44,788 nt of DNA from Bacteroidota bacterium (lineage in GTDB: Bacteria; Bacteroidota; Bacteroidia; Bacteroidales; VadinHA17). A model generated the notes under the pieces. That model worked only from the letters and a program-made list of their open reading frames with translations. It had not been told where the DNA came from and ran no database searches. Of the stretch, positions 2,077 through 38,077 are shown piece by piece. The stretch is from the NCBI GenBank assembly GCA_012729475.1, contig JAAYDB010000093.1, positions 1 through 44,788 of the forward strand. Direction: 5' to 3'. Position 1 is the stretch's first letter. Each line of letters begins with the position of its first letter. Position numbers and translations under genes: made by a program.

Positions 2077-2634
2077 ATGGGCTTTAATATAGAGAGTTAT
2101 TTACCAGACCAGTCGAATAATAATGTTATTCTTTTTTATAAGGGTAACGTGGATTCGGATGTCATTAATCAGATACTTGATAAAGTTGAAGATAAGATGA
2201 TAATGGTAAATGATCAGTCAAAACTCCGTAAAAAAGTTTATAACGTACTTGTCGAAACCCTCCAGAATCTGTATCATCACGTTGATAAGGTGCCGGAAGA
2301 TTATGAAGACCAGATGTCTGATAAGTTTGGTATCCTGCTTGTAACAAAAATTGATAACGGATACAAAATAACTACAGGAAATTTTGTCAAATCAATTAAT
2401 GTCGATAAGCTCAAGGAGAAGATTAATAAAATAAATAAATCCAGTCACGAAGAAATTAAAGAACTTTACAAATTTATATTGAATCATCAGAGGATATCCG
2501 CAAAAGGTGGCGGTGGTCTTGGCCTTGTTGATATAGCCAGAAAAACAGGAAATAAACTTCATTATTCTTTCAAAGAATATGATGACCGTTATTCCTTTTT
2601 TTTCCTGGATGTTTTAGTAAATAAGGATAATTAA
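2077..2634 (+). CDS. SiaB family protein kinase (DUF6272)
   Basis: A 185-residue cytosolic protein of the SiaB family, GHKL-type kinases that in Pseudomonas aeruginosa phosphorylate SiaC on a threonine. The N-box region is visible at residues 60-64 (ETLQN), with a glycine-rich ATP-lid/G-box at 144-150 (GGGGLGL). No sensor, HAMP or receiver domain is present, so it is a bare kinase domain. The next gene, 36 bp downstream, is the DUF1987 substrate SiaC. The genes for SiaA (PP2C phosphatase) and SiaD (diguanylate cyclase) are not next to it. A near-consensus promoter lies at 2011-2040. Family assignment is strong; the input signal and output partner are unknown here. Confidence 0.85.
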   Translation: MGFNIESYLPDQSNNNVILFYKGNVDSDVINQILDKVEDKMIMVNDQSKLRKKVYNVLVETLQNLYHHVDKVPEDYEDQMSDKFGILLVTKIDNGYKITTGNFVKSINVDKLKEKINKINKSSHEEIKELYKFILNHQRISAKGGGGLGLVDIARKTGNKLHYSFKEYDDRYSFFFLDVLVNKDN

Positions 2635-2670
2635 CCCCCGGAAATCAGATAACCTTAAATTTTATATAAA

Positions 2671-3051
2671 ATGGAACCGATCAATATTGAAGGAACACCC
2701 AAAACACCTACCGTAAGATTTGATGCCAGAGAAGGTGTATTTGAGATCAGAGGACGGTCAATCCCCGAAAATTCAGTAGAGTTTTATAAACCTATTGTTG
2801 ACTGGCTAGATAATTACAAAGAATCTCCTCTTCAAAAGACGGTTGTAAATATCAGACTGGAGTATTTTAATACCAGTTCATCAAAATGTATCCTTGATGT
2901 CTTCAAAAAACTTGAAGCAATACATAAAGCTAAAAATGATGTCGAGGTTAACTGGTATTATGAGGAAGATGATGAAGATATGCTTGAAGCAGGAGAAGAT
3001 TATGAATCCATTATCAGAGTGCCTTTTAAAATGGTAGAGATAGTAGAATAA
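2671..3051 (+). CDS. SiaC family regulatory phosphoprotein (DUF1987)
   Basis: A 126-residue protein of the SiaC/DUF1987 family. The opening 'IEGTPKTPTVRFD' and the central 'LEYFNTSSSK' match the family. The threonine of FNTSSSK is Thr68, the same number as the threonine that SiaB phosphorylates in P. aeruginosa SiaC. In that organism unphosphorylated SiaC binds and activates the diguanylate cyclase SiaD. The acidic stretch EEDDEDMLEAGEDYE (about 97-111) is a visible oddity. It is co-transcribed with the SiaB kinase gene and ends before a strong terminator (3084-3124). What this SiaC controls is unknown, since no SiaD-like cyclase lies in the window. Confidence 0.87.
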   Translation: MEPINIEGTPKTPTVRFDAREGVFEIRGRSIPENSVEFYKPIVDWLDNYKESPLQKTVVNIRLEYFNTSSSKCILDVFKKLEAIHKAKNDVEVNWYYEEDDEDMLEAGEDYESIIRVPFKMVEIVE

Positions 3052-3083: not shown

Positions 3084-3124
3084 GATAAGAAAAAGGGTGT
3101 CTTTGAAGGCACCTTTTTCTTATC
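3084..3124 (+). terminator. Intrinsic terminator after siaC, probably bidirectional
   Basis: GATAAGAAAAAGG pairs with CCTTTTTCTTATC around a short inner stem and loop (GTGTCTTTGAAGGCAC, one bulged G). The A-rich left arm and T-rich right arm allow it to work in both directions, serving siaC and the convergent transporter gene ending at 3213. Confidence 0.8.
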
Positions 3125-3212: not shown

Positions 3213-6200
3213 TCAACCATTATCTGTTTTATAATCTATTTCAGCCTGGCGGTTCTTTTTTCTGAATAAGCGTTCTCCCGAATCAAGTAATTTTTTAAGA
3301 AGTCTGAAATACAATGCTATATATAGCACAAAGGACATAAGCCATAATACTATGATGTTAACATAGAAGGTGTCTGCTTTATAGCCAAAGAACATTTTTA
3401 CAGGAGAATAAAAATGTGCCTTTATAAATGGATATGCGGGATCCATAAATACCGGATCAAGCTTTTGTATCAATTCTCCTCTGAATTCAAGAATTTTGAC
3501 CGTTTCATTTTTATTTGTTACAAACTCCTCCAGAGATTCATTGGAGTGGTCATCCCTTAATTTTAAAAATGCCTTATTGTCAATATTTTGCAGAGATGTT
3601 ATAAGCGCATCTTTTTTGTTCTTTGCGTTGTTCGAATAAGCAACATAATATTTTCTTATGTACTCCAGCCAATCGAGAGCTTCTTCCACCGTTTCATCTG
3701 TTACATATTCAGGCGTCAGCCCCTCAGTATTTTCGAACAGGAGTGCAGGATTAACCTTAGCCAGTTTCCGGAATTCATTATATGCAACTAACAGATTGTT
3801 ATTAAAATTTTCGCTTCTTGTGTTATCTGCCAGATCATTCTTAACATTCTCCAGATTTCCCTTAACCTCAATATACCAGTAGTCTTTCCGGTATTTTGCC
3901 TTGCTCATTGCCTCATCATAAATGTATAATTGCTTTTCATACTGATTATCTTTAAACTGTTTAACAGCAAGAGCCTCGTAACCCCATCTGGCTGAAATAA
4001 ATTCACCATATAATGGTATGGATGCAGGTGAAGACAGTTTGGGATTGAGTTTTTCAAATTTAACCATCACCCCACTGAGGATTATTTGCGGTATAACCAG
4101 AAAAGGGATGAGTATATATATTGTCACTACAGCTTTGAAACTGTCCGAAATCAGCAATCCCATAAGATTGGCTCCTGCCCAGCAAGAAAACAGAACAAGC
4201 CAGTACTCAAAAAACATACCTTTTATTCCTGTGATGGCATTACCAATCAGAACAAAAGTAAAAGCCTGGATTGCAGAAATACCAAGTTGGACAAATATTT
4301 TGGATATGAGATAACTGTTCCAGCTGAGATTCAGAAAGGCCTCTCTTTTCAGTATCTTCCTGTCTTTAATGATTTCTTCTGCACTTACTGTTAAGCCCAT
4401 AAATATTGCTATTATCACCGACATGAAGATATATATGGGAAGATTGCTGTTTTCATACAGTGTGTAAGTGGGATTAACAGAACTTTCATCGAAATATCTT
4501 ATCAGAAATGATAAAGCTGCCGCCAGAACTGGAGCTTCCAGTAGTGTTATCATAAGATATTGAATATCTGATATCTTGGACAGAATATCCCTTTTGATAA
4601 AGACGCTGATCTGCTTAAGTGGACCCGGAGTCTTGAAATTTATATCCGGCAGCGTTTTTTCAGGTTCTATAATATCTTCCTTTTTCTCTGATTTGTAGAG
4701 ACTACTCCAGTCAGAAGGAGACAATCGCCTGGTGTCGGTAGGATGCCCGCTCTCAGTAAAAACACGGGCCTCTACAATATTGAAAATCTGTTCGGGATTG
4801 ACATTGCCACAAACGTAACATTCACTTTCGTTGTAATTGGCCTGCCCAATCTTCTTTTTAAAGTATTCAATAGATTCGATCGGATTACCGTTATAAATAA
4901 GGTACCCTCCGGTGTCCAGGAAAATAAGCTTATCGAACATCTTAAATATATCAGAAGATGGTTGATGGATGACAATGAAAAGAAGCTTGCCTTTACGTGT
5001 AAGTTCCTTAAGAAGGTCGAGTATATTCTCAGAATCACGCGATGATAATCCGGAAGTTGGTTCGTCAAGAAACATAATTGCCGGCTCACGTATCAATTCA
5101 AGAGATATATTCAGTCTCTTTCTCTGTCCACCGCTAATATTCTTATTCAATGGACTGCCGACTTTCATATCACGTATTTCATATAAACCGAGATTCTTCA
5201 GGATAATGTCTACTTTTTCTTTGATTTCATTATCAGAGAGGTCATCAAAACAGAGCTTGGAATTATAATAGAGGTTTTCAAATACAGTCAATTCTTCTAT
5301 TAAGAGGTCATCCTGCGACACATAACCTATCAGACCCTTTAGTTCATCTTTCTTGTTGTGAATACTAACACCATTGATCAGTACCTCTCCGTCGTTTGGT
5401 GGGTTGGTCCCGTTCAGAACACTTAAAAGTGTTGATTTCCCTGCACCGCTTGCCCCCATAATACCAACCATTCTGCCCGATTCTGCCTTGAAACTCATGT
5501 GATGAATACCTACTTGTCCCGATTTAAATCTGTATTCAATATTGTTTACCTCATAAACAACTCTTGAAGATTTAAAGACTTCTTTGAGGAACTGCATCGT
5601 TACATCCCAGAAATAGACAGGCTTGATCTTATAACCTTTTATTGACGATCCCGGACTGAAAGGGTATACCTTATCTTCCTGAAGAAGCTGACCTTTCATC
5701 GATAGCTCCCCCGACCCGGCATAACGGAGATAATAGAGCCTTACTGACGGTAAAAAAAGGATCCATATTTGTCCTTTGAGGTTTTCTTTGTATATGTGCC
5801 TGGCTTCCTTTAGATATGAATTCTTCTCTCCGTTGATAAGCAGGAAGTTATGATGATCTGGAAAATCTCTGAAAGGACTTAAAACAAACTTTTCGATTGA
5901 ATGGAATTCTTCTTCTGTGATATTAAGGCCTTCTGCAAGTGTACTGATAAAACCAAGTTCCAGCTTACTTATCTCATCATCTCCCGATTTGCAAAACTCA
6001 AGAGCTTGTATCACAGCAACTATTCTTTGTTCCTGATCAAGTTGTCCCTGTTCATTGATCTCATTACACAGTTTCCTTATCCTGATGGCTATAGCTCCTT
6101 CACGGCGTTCTGTACTGCTCTTTTCAAGCTTCTTCCTGGCTTCATTGTAGGCCATGTCATATTTTGAAAGATACTTGTTCGTCAACTCCTGATTCAGAAG

Positions 6201-6308
6201 CCTCTTCAGAAATGCCTCAACAATACCTCTTCTCTCCAGATCATTCGCATGAGGCTTTGCTATTATGGCAAAGAGTTGTATCAGAGTCTCAAGTATCTTT
6301 TCACTCAT
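3213..6308 (-). CDS. ABCG-type ABC transporter, fused ATPase and permease with N-terminal TerB-like region
   Basis: Residue numbers count from the longest start (6398, 1061 aa). Residues 31-200 are helical and acidic and resemble the TerB-like domain seen before such transporters. The ATPase follows, with Walker A GASGAGKST (315-323), signature ISGGQ (421-425), Walker B IMFLDEPTSG (441-450) and the switch histidine in VIHQPSSD (His478). This ATPase-first order and 'DEPTSGLSS' are typical of ABCG/White-type transporters. After a linker containing CYVCGN (527-532), membrane segments begin near 615 and continue to the C-terminus, interrupted by a soluble region of about 200 residues (820-1010). 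I prefer the start at 6308 (MSEKILETLIQLFAIIAKP), because a -7 box (6360-6367) lies inside the longer version. The substrate is unknown. Confidence 0.88.
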   Translation of the reverse strand: MSEKILETLIQLFAIIAKPHANDLERRGIVEAFLKRLLNQELTNKYLSKYDMAYNEARKKLEKSSTERREGAIAIRIRKLCNEINEQGQLDQEQRIVAVIQALEFCKSGDDEISKLELGFISTLAEGLNITEEEFHSIEKFVLSPFRDFPDHHNFLLINGEKNSYLKEARHIYKENLKGQIWILFLPSVRLYYLRYAGSGELSMKGQLLQEDKVYPFSPGSSIKGYKIKPVYFWDVTMQFLKEVFKSSRVVYEVNNIEYRFKSGQVGIHHMSFKAESGRMVGIMGASGAGKSTLLSVLNGTNPPNDGEVLINGVSIHNKKDELKGLIGYVSQDDLLIEELTVFENLYYNSKLCFDDLSDNEIKEKVDIILKNLGLYEIRDMKVGSPLNKNISGGQRKRLNISLELIREPAIMFLDEPTSGLSSRDSENILDLLKELTRKGKLLFIVIHQPSSDIFKMFDKLIFLDTGGYLIYNGNPIESIEYFKKKIGQANYNESECYVCGNVNPEQIFNIVEARVFTESGHPTDTRRLSPSDWSSLYKSEKKEDIIEPEKTLPDINFKTPGPLKQISVFIKRDILSKISDIQYLMITLLEAPVLAAALSFLIRYFDESSVNPTYTLYENSNLPIYIFMSVIIAIFMGLTVSAEEIIKDRKILKREAFLNLSWNSYLISKIFVQLGISAIQAFTFVLIGNAITGIKGMFFEYWLVLFSCWAGANLMGLLISDSFKAVVTIYILIPFLVIPQIILSGVMVKFEKLNPKLSSPASIPLYGEFISARWGYEALAVKQFKDNQYEKQLYIYDEAMSKAKYRKDYWYIEVKGNLENVKNDLADNTRSENFNNNLLVAYNEFRKLAKVNPALLFENTEGLTPEYVTDETVEEALDWLEYIRKYYVAYSNNAKNKKDALITSLQNIDNKAFLKLRDDHSNESLEEFVTNKNETVKILEFRGELIQKLDPVFMDPAYPFIKAHFYSPVKMFFGYKADTFYVNIIVLWLMSFVLYIALYFRLLKKLLDSGERLFRKKNRQAEIDYKTDNG

Positions 6309-9094: not shown

Positions 9095-9430
9095 TTATTG
9101 CATTAACCTGATGCAGGTCTCACGATCATCGTGTATTTCCAGTATGGTATTCAGATGAAGAGTCCTGAATACTTCCATTACCTCAGGAGTAATACCGGTG
9201 AACTTTATTATACCAAGATTATCTCTTGCTGCCCTGTTTATCTGAAGTAAACAACCATATCCGGTACTGTCAATGTATTTTATATTAGCCAGATCAATAA
9301 CCACCCTTGAATTGCCGGCTTCAAGGGTCTTAATTATCTGGTTTTTTATTTCATCAACGTTCAGAGCATTGATGTTGTCAGTGTTGAATGTTATAATAAC
9401 AATCCTGTCCTTACTCTCAATGCTAATCAT
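9095..9430 (-). CDS. STAS-domain protein (anti-sigma factor antagonist type)
   Basis: A 111-residue single STAS domain of the SpoIIAA/RsbV type. The phosphorylatable serine is in the conserved loop 'IKYIDSTGYG' (Ser55), preceded by the strand VVIDLAN. Such proteins bind anti-sigma kinases when dephosphorylated and release a sigma factor or another effector. It overlaps the upstream Hpt gene by one base (TGATG), so the two are translationally coupled. No RsbW-type kinase or PP2C phosphatase is adjacent. The SiaB kinase at 2077 is the nearest GHKL kinase in the window, about 6.5 kb away. The family call is firm; the partner is unknown. Confidence 0.88.
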   Translation of the reverse strand: MISIESKDRIVIITFNTDNINALNVDEIKNQIIKTLEAGNSRVVIDLANIKYIDSTGYGCLLQINRAARDNLGIIKFTGITPEVMEVFRTLHLNTILEIHDDRETCIRLMQ

Positions 9431-9792
9431 CAGGTTTTATTTAACCGGCAAATAAGTAAATGATCAAGTTCTTTTACAGCCCCTGCAGTGTCGTTGCCAA
9501 ACTTGTTGATATAGTTTCCGTACTTTTCAGGATTAAGCCCTTCCTTTGCTTCAAGCTCAAATGTTTTGAGGATAGAAGCAAGTTCGTCCATGCCCATTAT
9601 GGCTACTGACGACTTTGCTTTATGGGCAAGAAGACCAAGAGAGTAATAATCCTTTTCCGACAGGAGTTGTTGCATCTCATTCTTTATCTCAATAACCTGT
9701 TCCCTGAAAATATCTATCAATTCCGATATTACAGTATCATCATCCCCGGATACCGAATCTAGATATTCAGTGTTGATATATTTATATTCCAT
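9430..9792 (-). CDS. Histidine phosphotransfer (Hpt) domain protein
   Basis: A 120-residue free-standing Hpt protein. The phospho-accepting histidine is in 'LLAHKAKSSVAIMGMDEL' (His57), with the usual small residues one helical turn later. Hpt proteins carry phosphoryl groups between response-regulator receiver domains, usually from a hybrid histidine kinase to an output regulator. No receiver or histidine kinase gene is in the window, so its partners lie elsewhere. It is the first gene of a two-gene unit with the STAS protein, and a TATATTTG -7 box lies about 45 bp upstream. Confidence 0.85.
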   Translation of the reverse strand: MEYKYINTEYLDSVSGDDDTVISELIDIFREQVIEIKNEMQQLLSEKDYYSLGLLAHKAKSSVAIMGMDELASILKTFELEAKEGLNPEKYGNYINKFGNDTAGAVKELDHLLICRLNKT

Positions 9793-29051: not shown

Positions 29052-32000
29052 TTATTGAACCAGTCTGTCGAGATTTAAAACTTCATCCTCCGGCAGATCG
29101 TTATTTGTCATTCTCATTATGAATCTGTTTATTCTGTCTTCAGCAGAGAGCATATAGGAATAAGGTTTGCGTGAAGATGAATCGGGATGTTTCCTGGCCC
29201 TGGACCGGATGCTTCCAAGCAGTATGTTGTAATTGCTGTTGCCTGAATAGCTCATCATATTACCCCTTACATAGGAGAAATAGTAAAATGTTGATTCACT
29301 TGCCTGAAGATATATATCAAACATGTCGCCTGATCTGCGGCGCTGAATCTCAACCATTCCGTCAACGTACACATTCAATGGCTGTTCTCCAATATAGCCT
29401 ATTCCAATTTTTCCTTTTGATCTGAACGAGGACGTGGCTTCATTCCAATAAAGGGTCACATCATTGAGGAGAATTTCAAAATTAAACTCCTTTGGAAGAT
29501 CGCCGGAACCTCCAAAAAGATCGAGCTGTTCTTTTACTTTCATGGCAGCTTCAATACCTATGAGATCTTCCATCCCGTTTTTATAGGTCTGATTGTTGAG
29601 ATTAACTGTTTTTAGTGATGGCATAAGCCTTATCTCATCACTCATTATTTTAAGGGCATCAGATGAAAAATGGAAATCGAATCCAAGCATGGTTTTTATT
29701 TCAATTTTACCGGAGTCCATCTTATGGGAAAAGCTACCACCCCCCGTCAGATTCACAAAATCAAAAGAAGTCCCCAGATTTATCCTGCCTTCACCTGATA
29801 ATGTACAATTAATATTGTCATATGCTATCATGTTACCTGAAAGACCTGGGTCTGCAATTTTTTCCAGGGATGCAATAAGATACCTGTTTTTTACTTTATC
29901 ATAGTAAAGATACCCCTGTGAGTTAACCAGTGCGACATCGGACCATGATTTTTGTGGAGAGAGGAAGGCTGGATAAATATGCACTGAATCGATATTTATA
30001 AATGATCCTGTGAAAAGAAGATTATCATTTATATCGCGTGGTTTTTCACTAACGGGTATCATAACTCTTTCAGGATCAATTTCTGCCTTAAACTGAACAG
30101 GATAAGTCCGGAATGTATTACAGTTGTTTACTATTCCCGCAGCGCCGGAAAAAAGCAGACTGTCTTTATCAGCATAGAGATTGACATCCCCGGAAAATGA
30201 AAATGCCGGACTAAGTCTGAATCCCTGGTTTTCAGGGATGAATCCCCGTGCACTGGTAGCCATTGATTCCACAGTTATATCAGAGATATTAATACCCTGT
30301 ATCTCTTTATTTTCGTCGATATAATCGTAAATGCCACTGCCGCTGTATTTTTTTGTTGATTCGATATCTACTTTTGCAGAGTGTAATATATGTTTTTTGT
30401 TAACAGCGATCAGGGCATTCTGTAACTGGTCTATACGGCCCCTGCGATTAATCATCATTTTCCCTTTATCCGGCTGAATGAGGGCATCAGCTATATGTAT
30501 ATAGTTAATATTCTCAGCTTCAATATATTCCTGGTCAACATGGTAGCTTGCCCTGGACGATGAGAAGGAAATGGTGTCGTCAATAACGTTGGTTGCGTAG
30601 AAAGTTGGTTTCTCCAGCTGTGCAGGGTCTTGTGCGAGCAATTCTTCACGAGTGAGAAGTTCTGATCCCGATTTCCCTGCCTGTTCCATTGAAAGAATTC
30701 TTGTTCCCTGATTATATGTAAAATCGGTCATTGTGCATATATATTGAATCTCAGGGAATTTAACCATTGATGTGTCGGTGTTAAGATGAAACCTTGTTTC
30801 CATCAGATCGAAGTTTATTTCCATCTGGGTATCTTCTGCTATAAAGGCATAACCACTGGTGGAGGGAGATTTGAAATTATAATCACAGGAGTCGGCTGTA
30901 ATCGAATTAGAGCTGAAACTGTATGTGTTTGATGTCACTCGTGAGTCGGTAGTGTTAATTATACCTCCTCCCTTAACACCGGAAGGGGTAATAACAAGGT
31001 TCCCGTCCAAAGTTGTGCCATTATCGAACATATTGAAAGAATTGTCCATACTGTTTACAGCATACAGTTCATCATCGGGAATCAACCATCTTATAGCAAC
31101 TTCCCTGCTTGAAAGGATGGGATACAATCCGGTAGTATCCCTGTCCATGTTGAATTGTGATGCCTGAGTTATAAGAGAGTCAGGATAGATCTTCATGTTC
31201 TCGGCAACTATAGTGGAAGTCAGATGCTTCAACGTACCTGTAGCCAGAAGTCCCTGATTGCTCATACTGAAAGTATTGTATAACTTTCCCTTATCTCCGT
31301 AGATATCAATGCCTTCTTCCGGGATGATTACATTAATGCCAAGAGAATTGTTTTGCTGGATAGTCATATATTGGCGGGTCGGTTTAAAAATATTCCCGGC
31401 AAAAAACTCTCCTGACAGCTCAACGTCATCAATTGTGAAGTGATCAATATTTTCGTATGTAAAAGGATCAATGATGAAATAGAAATCTTCTTTTGGATAT
31501 ATGTTTTCAAGTCCCGGAATATCGTCAAAGAAGATATATGAACTTTCCAGAGCATTGATTATTGGGTATTGTTTAAGACTTCTGAGACCTGATTTATTGT
31601 TCGGATCATCAATATAAAGTTCAGCAGATGCAAGTTGGATTATATTTCCGATATTCCTTATTAGAGGGTTGCCATAAATGTCTTTATTTTCTGTTTCCAC
31701 AGCAAGACGTATTGAATCAATTTCTGCCAGGTTTATTTTAAAGGTATCGTAATTAAATGCAAAATCATGTCCGAAGAAAGTCATAAGTCCGGCTTCAATC
31801 ACTCCATCAAAACGTATACTTCTGTTATTGCCAATAACTAACTGACGATCATAGGGGTAAAAAGCTACTCTCTGTGAATCGGACAGATAAACACGTGAGA
31901 CTCCGTTAATTTTAAGATCAAAGCTCTTAAGATCCAGTATGGCATTGTCAAGCGGAGCTTTTGTCTCACTGTAAATTCTGATTACATCGTAGTCCTGTTT

Positions 32001-33563
32001 TTTACTGAAGGAGTTTAGATAGTCGTCAACTTTTGGTTTGAGTGTAATTTCATTGAATTTACGGTCATAGAAAACAAAACCTTTATTAGCCATATCGATA
32101 CACAAACCTGTAACAGCGTCAACAGGTTTGTTCAGCCATCTTGCAAATTCTTCAACAGGGAATGTAGTTGAATAATAATATTCGGCGAAATTTTTGAACC
32201 TGACCAATGGATGATAATCATCAATACCTGCCAGTTTCATGAAATAATCTGCATTAAAGAATGACACAGATTCAAATTCAGCTTGTCCCAAAGCAGCTCC
32301 TTTTGCTCTGGAAAGAAGTACTTTGGACTCTTTCATATTCCATGATAGGAGTTCGAAATACATGTCGAGCCTGTGAAATGAATCAAAATACGGGCTTTTT
32401 GAAACAGGATTATTTGCCCTGAAAAGGTTTACCTGTTGTTCTGAAGCGTTGAAAGAAAAACCCAGGTTTGAGTGAAAGATCGAATCTTTATCAAGATAGA
32501 GTGACATTGATACTTCTCCACTGGCCAGTCCGTCTCTTGTAAAAAGAAATTCTCCGGATCTTATTCTGAGATAGAGAGTGTCATTTCTGTGAAATGTCAG
32601 TTCAGCTGATAAGTTTTCTCCACCACTGCCTTTGACCGTTGAGCCTTCAAAAGCCAATCCTCCTGTGTAATTTATCCCTTCGTAGATATTTTCCAGTCTG
32701 AAACTTTTCGTGTAGGTTTCAAAGCGGGGATAATTAGCTCTGGCAGGATTGGTGATTGGTACCGTTTGCTCAGAAAGAAAACCTTCAATAGGCGTTTCAA
32801 AATATGTTTTGTGAGTTAACAATACCGAATCGGCTGTGAAACTGTTTTTTGCAGTGTTAATGAAGAAATTTCCAAGATCAGCATATACTTCATCAGCTGA
32901 ATAGCCGGCCTTTTCCCAGGTGACTCTCCCGCTGGTTCCATGAAATTGCTGGAACTCAGGATAATAAGTTCCTGATACATTGTATATCTCGCTACTGTCT
33001 TTCTGTGAATAACAGGTAAGGGTGGCATTGTTAATTATTGCTTTAAATACTGTGTCATGAAGGAAACTGAGTTTGCTGTTTTTTACTTTCCATTGCATTC
33101 CGGATATATCAGAAATAATATTGTCAGTGATCATTAAACCGGTATTTTTTATATACCTGTCTATATTCTCAGAAGGATATCTGGGGTCAAATACTATTTC
33201 ACTTAAACCCGTAAGCCAATTGCTTAAGAACTTCGGATCAGTTTTCCATTCGATGAATTTATTCAGAGTTATCACGAAATTGTTAAAATGGGGAACAGGT
33301 CTCATAAAACGGCCATAAAGCTGACTTATAATGTCAATTATCTTTACTTTGTTTTCTTTATTGTAAACAGTGCTGTCCCATTTGACCAGAAAAGCTTCAA
33401 GACTTGCCTTTTGTTCATCATTGAGGTTTGGCCCCATAAAGCTGGTGAGTTCCGTCCGGAACTCAGAGAAATCACCTGAAAAAGGTGATTTGACCTGAGC
33501 CAGCAAATCGCTCCCTGAAAAAACCAGGAAAACCAGAAAGAGCAAGGTGTATTTCTTAAGCAT
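29052..33563 (-). CDS. Very large secreted protein of unknown function (1503 aa)
   Basis: A 1503-residue exported protein with a signal peptide at about 1-23 (MLKKYTLLFLVFLVFSGSDL, then LAQ). The rest is almost entirely short alternating beta strands with polar turns, with recurring units such as 'GRVTWEKAGYSADEVYADL', 'SFSSNSITADSCDYNFKSP' and 'IEAENINYIHIADALIQPDKG'. These resemble the repeated jellyroll units of OstA/LptA-LptD-type proteins or AsmA-like bridges, but no motif proves it. No T9SS C-terminal domain, protease or sugar-binding motif is seen. It lies in a conserved-looking run with tpiA, tmk and rsmE, which suggests a core envelope role rather than accessory cargo. Confidence 0.8.
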   Translation of the reverse strand: MLKKYTLLFLVFLVFSGSDLLAQVKSPFSGDFSEFRTELTSFMGPNLNDEQKASLEAFLVKWDSTVYNKENKVKIIDIISQLYGRFMRPVPHFNNFVITLNKFIEWKTDPKFLSNWLTGLSEIVFDPRYPSENIDRYIKNTGLMITDNIISDISGMQWKVKNSKLSFLHDTVFKAIINNATLTCYSQKDSSEIYNVSGTYYPEFQQFHGTSGRVTWEKAGYSADEVYADLGNFFINTAKNSFTADSVLLTHKTYFETPIEGFLSEQTVPITNPARANYPRFETYTKSFRLENIYEGINYTGGLAFEGSTVKGSGGENLSAELTFHRNDTLYLRIRSGEFLFTRDGLASGEVSMSLYLDKDSIFHSNLGFSFNASEQQVNLFRANNPVSKSPYFDSFHRLDMYFELLSWNMKESKVLLSRAKGAALGQAEFESVSFFNADYFMKLAGIDDYHPLVRFKNFAEYYYSTTFPVEEFARWLNKPVDAVTGLCIDMANKGFVFYDRKFNEITLKPKVDDYLNSFSKKQDYDVIRIYSETKAPLDNAILDLKSFDLKINGVSRVYLSDSQRVAFYPYDRQLVIGNNRSIRFDGVIEAGLMTFFGHDFAFNYDTFKINLAEIDSIRLAVETENKDIYGNPLIRNIGNIIQLASAELYIDDPNNKSGLRSLKQYPIINALESSYIFFDDIPGLENIYPKEDFYFIIDPFTYENIDHFTIDDVELSGEFFAGNIFKPTRQYMTIQQNNSLGINVIIPEEGIDIYGDKGKLYNTFSMSNQGLLATGTLKHLTSTIVAENMKIYPDSLITQASQFNMDRDTTGLYPILSSREVAIRWLIPDDELYAVNSMDNSFNMFDNGTTLDGNLVITPSGVKGGGIINTTDSRVTSNTYSFSSNSITADSCDYNFKSPSTSGYAFIAEDTQMEINFDLMETRFHLNTDTSMVKFPEIQYICTMTDFTYNQGTRILSMEQAGKSGSELLTREELLAQDPAQLEKPTFYATNVIDDTISFSSSRASYHVDQEYIEAENINYIHIADALIQPDKGKMMINRRGRIDQLQNALIAVNKKHILHSAKVDIESTKKYSGSGIYDYIDENKEIQGINISDITVESMATSARGFIPENQGFRLSPAFSFSGDVNLYADKDSLLFSGAAGIVNNCNTFRTYPVQFKAEIDPERVMIPVSEKPRDINDNLLFTGSFINIDSVHIYPAFLSPQKSWSDVALVNSQGYLYYDKVKNRYLIASLEKIADPGLSGNMIAYDNINCTLSGEGRINLGTSFDFVNLTGGGSFSHKMDSGKIEIKTMLGFDFHFSSDALKIMSDEIRLMPSLKTVNLNNQTYKNGMEDLIGIEAAMKVKEQLDLFGGSGDLPKEFNFEILLNDVTLYWNEATSSFRSKGKIGIGYIGEQPLNVYVDGMVEIQRRRSGDMFDIYLQASESTFYYFSYVRGNMMSYSGNSNYNILLGSIRSRARKHPDSSSRKPYSYMLSAEDRINRFIMRMTNNDLPEDEVLNLDRLVQ

Positions 33564-37300: not shown

Positions 37301-38077
37301 ATGCTAGTACCGGTTACCTTCCTTGATGTTCTTGATATTTTAATAGTTGCTTTTATTTTGTATCAACTGTATAAAATAATCAAAGGCACTTCTGCTGTCA
37401 GTATCTTTATTGCTGTATTCTTTTTGTACCTGTTCTGGCTTATAGTGAAGGCATTGAATATGCAATTGGTTAGTTCGTTGCTTGGTCAGGTGATGGGTGT
37501 TGGAGTTATTGCTCTTATAGTTGTTTTTCAACAGGAAGTGAGACGCTTTCTTCTTGTTATTGGAAACAGATACATACAGAATACAAAATATTCACTCAAG
37601 AAATTTTTTAATTCAGGCACAGAAGAACAACCGGCACTGGCTATTGCCGATGAACTGGTCAGAGCATCAGAGTCGATGGCCCGTAAGAAAATTGGTGCAC
37701 TGATTGTGATAAGTCGCGAAAGTAAACTCACAATGTATTCTGACGGAGGAGAACTAATTAGGGCCCAGATAAGTGCTGAATTACTGGAAACGATTTTTTT
37801 TAAAAATACTCCTTTACACGATGGAGCAGTAATAATTGAAGATAATTTGATTATGGCAGCACGATGTCCGCTGCCTGTTACTGACCAACTGGTACTCTTA
37901 CCCCACCTTGGGATGAGACACAGGGCAGCAATAGGAATGTCTGAACAGACAGATGCTCTGGTAATTGTTATTTCAGAAGAAACAGGCCGTATATCAGTGG
38001 CTGATTCCGGAGAACTGAGAGAAAATGTCAAAGCAGATGAACTGAAAAATATTCTCCTGATGGAAAAAGTATGGTGA
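37301..38077 (+). CDS. cdaA: Diadenylate cyclase CdaA (c-di-AMP synthase)
   Basis: A 258-residue membrane-bound DAC-domain enzyme that makes cyclic di-AMP from two ATP. Residues 1-80 hold three membrane helices, a coiled linker follows, and the DAC domain carries DGA (174-176) and RHR (206-208), the two catalytic motifs. This is the CdaA/DacA arrangement, which in Firmicutes responds to osmotic and cell-wall state. The gene follows folP, rather than the cdaR-glmM neighbours seen in Bacillus, and no CdaR (YbbR) gene is seen. It is convergent with the secreted unknown at 38138. Confidence 0.96.
   Translation: MLVPVTFLDVLDILIVAFILYQLYKIIKGTSAVSIFIAVFFLYLFWLIVKALNMQLVSSLLGQVMGVGVIALIVVFQQEVRRFLLVIGNRYIQNTKYSLKKFFNSGTEEQPALAIADELVRASESMARKKIGALIVISRESKLTMYSDGGELIRAQISAELLETIFFKNTPLHDGAVIIEDNLIMAARCPLPVTDQLVLLPHLGMRHRAAIGMSEQTDALVIVISEETGRISVADSGELRENVKADELKNILLMEKVW

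Follow-up and report, generated by a model that had tools for sequence, protein, structure and literature searches.

A SiaB-SiaC pair beside an ABCG-type transporter in Bacteroidia, probably part of a switch independent of c-di-GMP

INTRODUCTION

Partner switches of the RsbW-RsbV-RsbU and SpoIIAB-AA-IIE kind are built from a HATPase kinase, a STAS-like substrate and a PP2C phosphatase. The system considered here has the same kinase, substrate and phosphatase classes, differing in that its substrate is of the SiaC family, and its closest described counterpart is SiaABCD of Pseudomonas aeruginosa, in which, according to the reports on it (PMC7647112, PMC8457831, PMC7278518), a SiaB-type kinase adjoins a SiaC with Thr68. 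Two of these papers have SiaC binding its target only when unphosphorylated (PMC7278518; PMC8457831), and the authors of the SiaC-SiaD structure propose that SiaC (DUF1987) proteins are general modulators of adjacent proteins (PMC8457831). On the transporter side, a likeness is offered by Rv1747-PknF of Mycobacterium tuberculosis, where the gene of an exporter-type ABC transporter with an FHA domain lies next to a Ser/Thr kinase gene (PMC3908365, PMC5549992); that kinase is of another family and no SiaC is involved, whereas in our case the FHA-like domain, discernible from its fold only, comes after a TerB-like part. Among the open-literature matches listed, as represented by titles, abstract beginnings and passages, we found none that links the SiaB/SiaC phosphoswitch to Bacteroidota or to an ABC transporter.

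Here we analyse a siaB-siaC pair in a 44,788-nucleotide stretch of DNA (the window), which is an entire contig of a 187-contig Bacteroidota genome (2.97 Mb, 97% complete). Its closest relatives by SiaC are mainly MAGs labelled Bacteroidales or Bacteroidetes, and some of their isolate names, as we read them, hint at sediment, fen or digester sludge. Distributions were taken from an even sample of 296 genomes of the phylum and from 395 genomes of the class; neighbourhoods were read in 18 phylum genomes, 80 nearest named relatives and 60 class genomes, these last 60 loci having been chosen among the top-listed SiaC matches, with a single locus per genome.

RESULTS

The siaB-siaC pair

The 185-aa product of siaB (2077..2634, plus strand) is by profile matches a SiaB-family (DUF6272) HATPase-type protein kinase, scoring 130 bits against DUF6272/PF19788 (Pfam cut-off 26.6) and 149.9 bits against the SiaB_fam_kinase model NF038262 (cut-off 85). 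After a spacing of 36 bp it is followed on the same strand by siaC (2671..3051), encoding a 126-aa STAS-like phosphoprotein that reaches 160.2 bits against the Pfam SiaC family PF09345 (cut-off 24.5). Its predicted acceptor, Thr68, stands between Asn67 and Ser69, and in the alignment it falls on the NTSS motif of the P. aeruginosa protein; the initial annotation was thus right to place a SiaB-SiaC pair with Thr68 at 2077-3051. SiaB retains E60 and N64 of the N-box and the glycine box GGGGLGL, which we take to be the catalytic boxes of the HATPase fold; in an alignment of 173 SiaB domains the N-box Glu was present in 171 and the Asn in 169. The PDB sequences matched well were 6kko alone for SiaB, and 6kko, 6kkp, 7e6g and 6k4f alone for SiaC. 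By analogy with the P. aeruginosa proteins, SiaB would phosphorylate SiaC here too.

Both proteins fell below narrower models, SiaB below the P. aeruginosa-type model (73.3 vs. 225 bits) and SiaC below the equivalog NF038265 (103.7 vs. 150 bits). Scores under equivalog cut-offs, together with the failure to find SiaD described below, would suit a functionless remnant of a lost SiaABCD pathway, a reading that we consider very improbable: catalytic and acceptor residues are retained, no more than 300 bp separate siaB and siaC in 133 of the 134 loci with room, and SiaC copy number has expanded (median 4 in 61 genomes).

Other Sia components of the genome

The initial annotation had recognised neither SiaA nor SiaD and had taken kinase and substrate to be all that was present. 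For SiaD this held: no GGDEF domain was found in the whole genome, by a search that was positive in 8 of 14 control genomes, so SiaD is missing and not just distant, and the output must, as proposed, differ from that of P. aeruginosa. Nor was any SiaD-like stalk found in this genome at E ≤ 1, with a model that was positive in 10 of 65 genomes. For SiaA the claim failed in part. The window contig yielded no PP2C, in agreement with the earlier statement that none is near, and yet the genome encodes six SpoIIE-type PP2Cs, four of which align to the SiaA model over its catalytic half (E 1e-47 to 1e-56, far below the whole-protein cut-off). We therefore reject the absence of SiaA; looking for a SiaA/SiaD pair elsewhere in the genome returned the SiaA-like half of it. 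Two of the six PP2Cs carry Reg_prop sensor repeats (Pfam), and Pfam called no HAMP domain on any of them; this genome differs from SiaABCD also in lacking a HAMP-bearing PP2C SiaA in the operon, its phosphatases being unlinked and having other sensor parts.

Nor are kinase and substrate single. The genome has seven SiaC genes, the window copy included, all seven retaining Y65, N67, T/S68 and S70, and three SiaB domains in two genes, the second gene being a tandem double; seven SiaC genes and a double-domain SiaB point to a network, in which the SiaC copies may cross-talk. The double-kinase protein has 372 aa and its gene stands alone (L050:3837-4955, contig C139); in another class genome a double SiaB gene lies immediately upstream of a siaC (L080:4720-5814). 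For each of the six other siaC genes 16-20 kb of surroundings were read, and neither a SiaB gene nor a stalk gene was found there. Two of these copies are convergent, 0.65 kb apart, near NapC/NirT-type cytochrome and cytochrome c552 genes (L041:6836-10864, contig C72), and an orphan siaC begins 12 bases past a MacB/FtsX permease gene (L042:8553-10208, contig C175), a second transporter-siaC pairing.

Two further observations on the window belong here. A CdaA-type c-di-AMP cyclase gene (DAC and CdaA_N domains) at 37301-38077 provides for another cyclic dinucleotide in this genome without a detected GGDEF, and a 1503-aa protein without Pfam match is encoded at 29052-33563, flanked by RNA methyltransferase and triosephosphate isomerase genes.

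Spread of the switch and of GGDEF domains

SiaC and SiaB (over cut-off) occurred in the identical 18 of the 296 phylum genomes. Five of these belong to the class of the window, with a GGDEF match in none; all 13 SiaC genomes outside the class had GGDEF matches, with 6 to 10 strong ones in each of six genomes from one family and a lone, weaker match (E 1e-11 to 1e-18) in each of the other seven. Within the class, SiaC was found in 213 of 395 genomes, and GGDEF in one (G370) of the 61 SiaC-positive genomes searched (60 plus our own); what had been noted as a lack of GGDEF genes nearby is therefore a stronger absence than claimed. A GGDEF model built from two true GGDEF proteins matched four ORFs, one each in L100 and L101 and a further two, both pieces, in L103; it matched nothing in the 140 loci from the class and the near relatives. 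Multiplicity of SiaC is common, with at least two copies in 52 of the 61 genomes, at least five in 22, and as many as 11 or more in one genome, scoring having been capped at 11. SpoIIE PP2Cs were present in all 65 SiaC-positive class genomes searched, and in 17 of the 60 class-wide loci a PP2C gene lay no more than six genes from siaC. We hold a c-di-GMP-free Sia-type network to be very probable in our genome. A lipoprotein-like product of about 280 aa is encoded near siaB, mostly between the PP2C gene and siaB, in 15 of the 60 class-wide loci (e.g., L221:8300-9118).

The transporter gene next to siaC

Downstream of siaC lies a minus-strand gene (3213..6308) for a 1031-aa protein with ABC_tran followed by ABC2_membrane in one chain (Pfam), which is the ABCG half-transporter architecture, behind a TerB-like and FHA-like head; we treat it as the candidate output. 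Relatives back its annotated start at 6308 over a longer ORF reaching 6398. The two genes are 161 bp apart, with a hairpin bearing an A-tract and a T-tract between them (3084..3124; region z -2.72) that is a probable bidirectional terminator, although a simple pattern scan for terminators yielded no terminator-like site and did not list this hairpin. Because the genes converge on this probable terminator, co-transcription of siaC and the transporter gene in the window is unlikely, and siaBC and the transporter gene are probably separate transcription units.

In each of the five SiaC genomes that the phylum sample includes from this class, the ABCG transporter gene is the next one downstream of siaC; the five proteins have 1023-1036 aa, the others being 41-44% identical to that of the window. 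Three of these genomes (family f10) share the same-strand order HAMP-GAF-PAS-PP2C, siaB, siaC, transporter, where the PP2C with its HAMP, GAF and PAS domains looks like a sensor phosphatase (one of them, scanned against the SiaA model, scored 224 vs. 700 bits); in the remaining two the transporter gene converges on siaC. Allowing up to 1.5 kb downstream of siaC, we found the transporter gene in 62 of the 80 nearest named loci (60 of the 72 having that much room), and class-wide in 16 of 60 loci, or 17 counting L268 with overlapping genes. Locus L152, where siaC escaped ORF calling, is counted as not adjacent. The siaBC-transporter neighbourhood is thus conserved among close relatives and partly so across the class. 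With all samples pooled, adjacency extends to 15 families.

Taking as presence a match to the head search profile at E 1e-15 or better, we found the transporter head in 199 of the 395 class genomes: 190 had both SiaC and transporter, 23 SiaC only, 9 transporter only and 173 neither (Fisher p 6e-73, uncorrected for phylogeny), i.e., the transporter was in 190 of 213 SiaC genomes against 9 of 182 without SiaC. Adding 17 weaker head matches changed these counts to 192, 21, 24 and 158, respectively. Adjacency and co-occurrence make this transporter, already named as a linked candidate by the initial annotation, the best one.

The same neighbourhoods can be read otherwise, namely that the switch is real and free of c-di-GMP, that the transporter is its neighbour by inherited gene order, and that SiaC acts on other proteins, for example products of genes flanking the orphan siaC copies, the MacB/FtsX permease among them. 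Upstream of siaB, 28 of the 60 class-wide loci keep a methyltransferase gene and 24 a ZIP permease gene, each more than keep the transporter gene; since these genes are seemingly unrelated, the siaC-transporter adjacency may likewise be inherited, and old gene order can persist here without evident function. Moreover, in 20 genomes whose best siaC lies elsewhere, neither siaB nor siaC was found near the transporter gene (0 of 20 loci), nine genomes have the transporter without SiaC, and seven SiaC copies, one directly following the permease gene, suggest several targets. Against this, the transporter gene stays by siaC despite differing upstream contexts and in two orientations, and transporter and SiaC co-occur across genomes even when not adjacent. 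We hold inheritance of gene order to be a serious possibility, somewhat short of an even chance.

At 16 of the 20 transporter loci without siaB and siaC (among L295-L314), two small genes of about 140 and 300 aa are present instead, and for this reason these may be the closer partners of the transporter. Their products have signal- or lipoprotein-like starts by eye and no Pfam or NCBIfam match, and they accompany the transporter across the class (also L193:13523-14855).

The Hpt and STAS genes

The initial annotation had put forward an Hpt-STAS pair as a second linked candidate. Pfam confirms both genes on the minus strand, STAS at 9095..9430 and Hpt at 9430..9792, the STAS protein carrying a DSTG acceptor-like motif. 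Regulation of this pair by SiaC, or the feeding of a phosphorelay, would fit its recurrence downstream of siaBC among the closest relatives (STAS in 29 and Hpt in 28 of the 80 loci), where it is a conserved neighbour; neither gene was found near siaBC in any of the 60 class-wide loci, and in the window the pair is separated from siaBC by the transporter and clpB genes. We therefore rejected the pair as a general output, and regard its control by the SiaC of the window as highly unlikely.

Architecture of the transporter head

We modelled the head (residues 1-285) from 48 sequences at a mean pLDDT of 84.6, with helical residues 1-143 and beta residues 155-232. The first part (residues 1-143; 5880..6308, minus strand) is all-helical and tentatively TerB-like, the best structural matches that take it in being 2h5n (unknown function, Z 7.7) and 2ou3 (titled tellurite resistance protein, Z 7.5), values that are weak for helices. 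The second (residues 146-252; 5553..5873, minus strand) is a beta domain, tentatively FHA-like: modelled alone it reached pLDDT 87, Foldseek returned mainly FHA domains (best E 0.005, prob 1.00), and by VIA the Z was up to 8.4, most of the 50 listed structural matches being FHA by title. Pfam called neither an FHA nor a TerB domain on the transporter, and inspection of the conservation line of the head by eye did not pick out the phosphothreonine-contact residues of FHA.

Stalk partners of SiaC in other Bacteroidota

In 12 of the 13 SiaC genomes outside the class (the exception being G109), a protein with a coiled-coil stalk is encoded near siaC, within 150 bp save for one of two in G283, at 2 kb. 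Its core reads Tyr..Leu...Tyr..Leu-Leu followed by (Ile/Val)-(Ser/Gly/Ala)-Asp-x-x-Gln and, matched by eye, recalls Ser82, Asp83 and Gln86, the residues of SiaD reported to make contact in the SiaC-SiaD complex (PMC8457831). The stalk is joined to GGDEF in three genomes (Pfam on one, model matches on the others), to a class III adenylate/guanylate cyclase domain in G275 and G283, and to histidine kinase domains (Pfam on two, others by similarity); further forms are fused to PP2C, to a membrane segment (by eye), or consist of the stalk alone. The stalk-class III cyclase genes lie right downstream of siaC (L095:10793-11863, L097:10832-11902), and there the Sia switch may drive another nucleotide messenger. 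One family has two tandem stalk plus membrane-segment genes after siaC (L256:8792-9775, L274:10031-10994), possibly membrane-anchored SiaC partners without an enzyme domain. On contig C16 of G272, in the GGDEF-type family, the siaB, stalk-GGDEF and PP2C genes beside siaC read as pieces (L103:8660-11516). These loci resemble that of the window in having siaB-siaC followed by a putative SiaC target, and differ in that their target bears a SiaD-like stalk, of which our genome gave no example.

Within the class, stalks are rare, being found in 10 of 65 SiaC genomes at E 0.01 and in 8 at E < 1e-10. In these eight the transporter head was absent (three) or matched at E 1e-15 to 3e-53, whereas 55 of the other 57 matched at E 2e-62 or better, the exceptions being G610 (59% complete) and G335; the cut of 1e-60 that separates close from divergent transporters was set after the data were seen, at 1e-10 five of the eight stalk genomes count as having the transporter, and genomes were counted without phylogenetic correction. 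Two of the 55 (G417 and G421) have weak stalk matches (E 0.001 and 0.003) plus close transporters, and the explanation for the eight stalk genomes may be no more than a greater distance of relationship. The idea that the transporter head conceals a stalk was unsupported (hhalign probability 0.2%, no profile similarity).

Residues of SiaC also appeared to follow the partner: of the 84 transporter-linked proteins, 83 have Ala at position 107 and 67 have Pro at position 10, whereas of the 24 stalk-linked ones 19 have Thr or Ser at the first of these positions and 14 have Lys or His at the second. We dropped these positions as a partner-specific interface because SiaC proteins from loci with neither partner resemble the transporter group; they may mark lineages only.

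DISCUSSION

We propose that siaBC is the core of a Sia-type switch independent of c-di-GMP, and that the likeliest target of the window SiaC is the adjacent TerB-FHA-ABCG transporter, a combined claim to which we give an even chance; that SiaC acts on the transporter at all we rate at about even odds, or slightly under. In such a switch, both SiaB kinases would phosphorylate Thr/Ser68 of up to seven SiaC proteins, and SiaA-type PP2Cs with differing sensor parts, encoded elsewhere in the genome, would take the phosphate off. Unphosphorylated SiaC would then bind its target protein and set its state, so that, carrying over the P. aeruginosa logic, the window SiaC would bind its target while a SiaA-like sensor phosphatase is active. 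Compared with SiaABCD, this genome has no detected SiaD or GGDEF, seven SiaC genes, and an ABCG transporter by siaC.

Among Bacteroidota, the TerB-FHA-ABCG transporter would take the place of the stalked SiaD-type partner found elsewhere in the phylum. An ABCG half-transporter is expected to dimerise, and by analogy its dimer would offer a dimeric platform, as the dimer of the SiaD stalk does. More tentatively, and at somewhat less than an even chance, we suggest that the SiaC switch of Bacteroidia has exchanged a nucleotide-messenger enzyme for a membrane exporter, with SiaC, either unphosphorylated or (via the FHA-like domain) phosphorylated, docking on the TerB-FHA head of the ABCG dimer and gating export, and with few SiaB kinases and several sensor phosphatases serving many SiaC adaptors, each with its own target. 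Contact of SiaC with the head and direct control of the transporter are inferred, and the adjacency could be explained by inherited gene order.

The proteins encoded next to SiaC can now be named across the phylum: a portable stalk on several outputs (diguanylate cyclase, class III nucleotide cyclase, histidine kinase, PP2C), and in Bacteroidia an exporter. This sets the Sia switch apart from c-di-GMP, reveals SiaC families of up to 11 or more members per genome, and makes SiaC and the transporter a directly testable partner pair.
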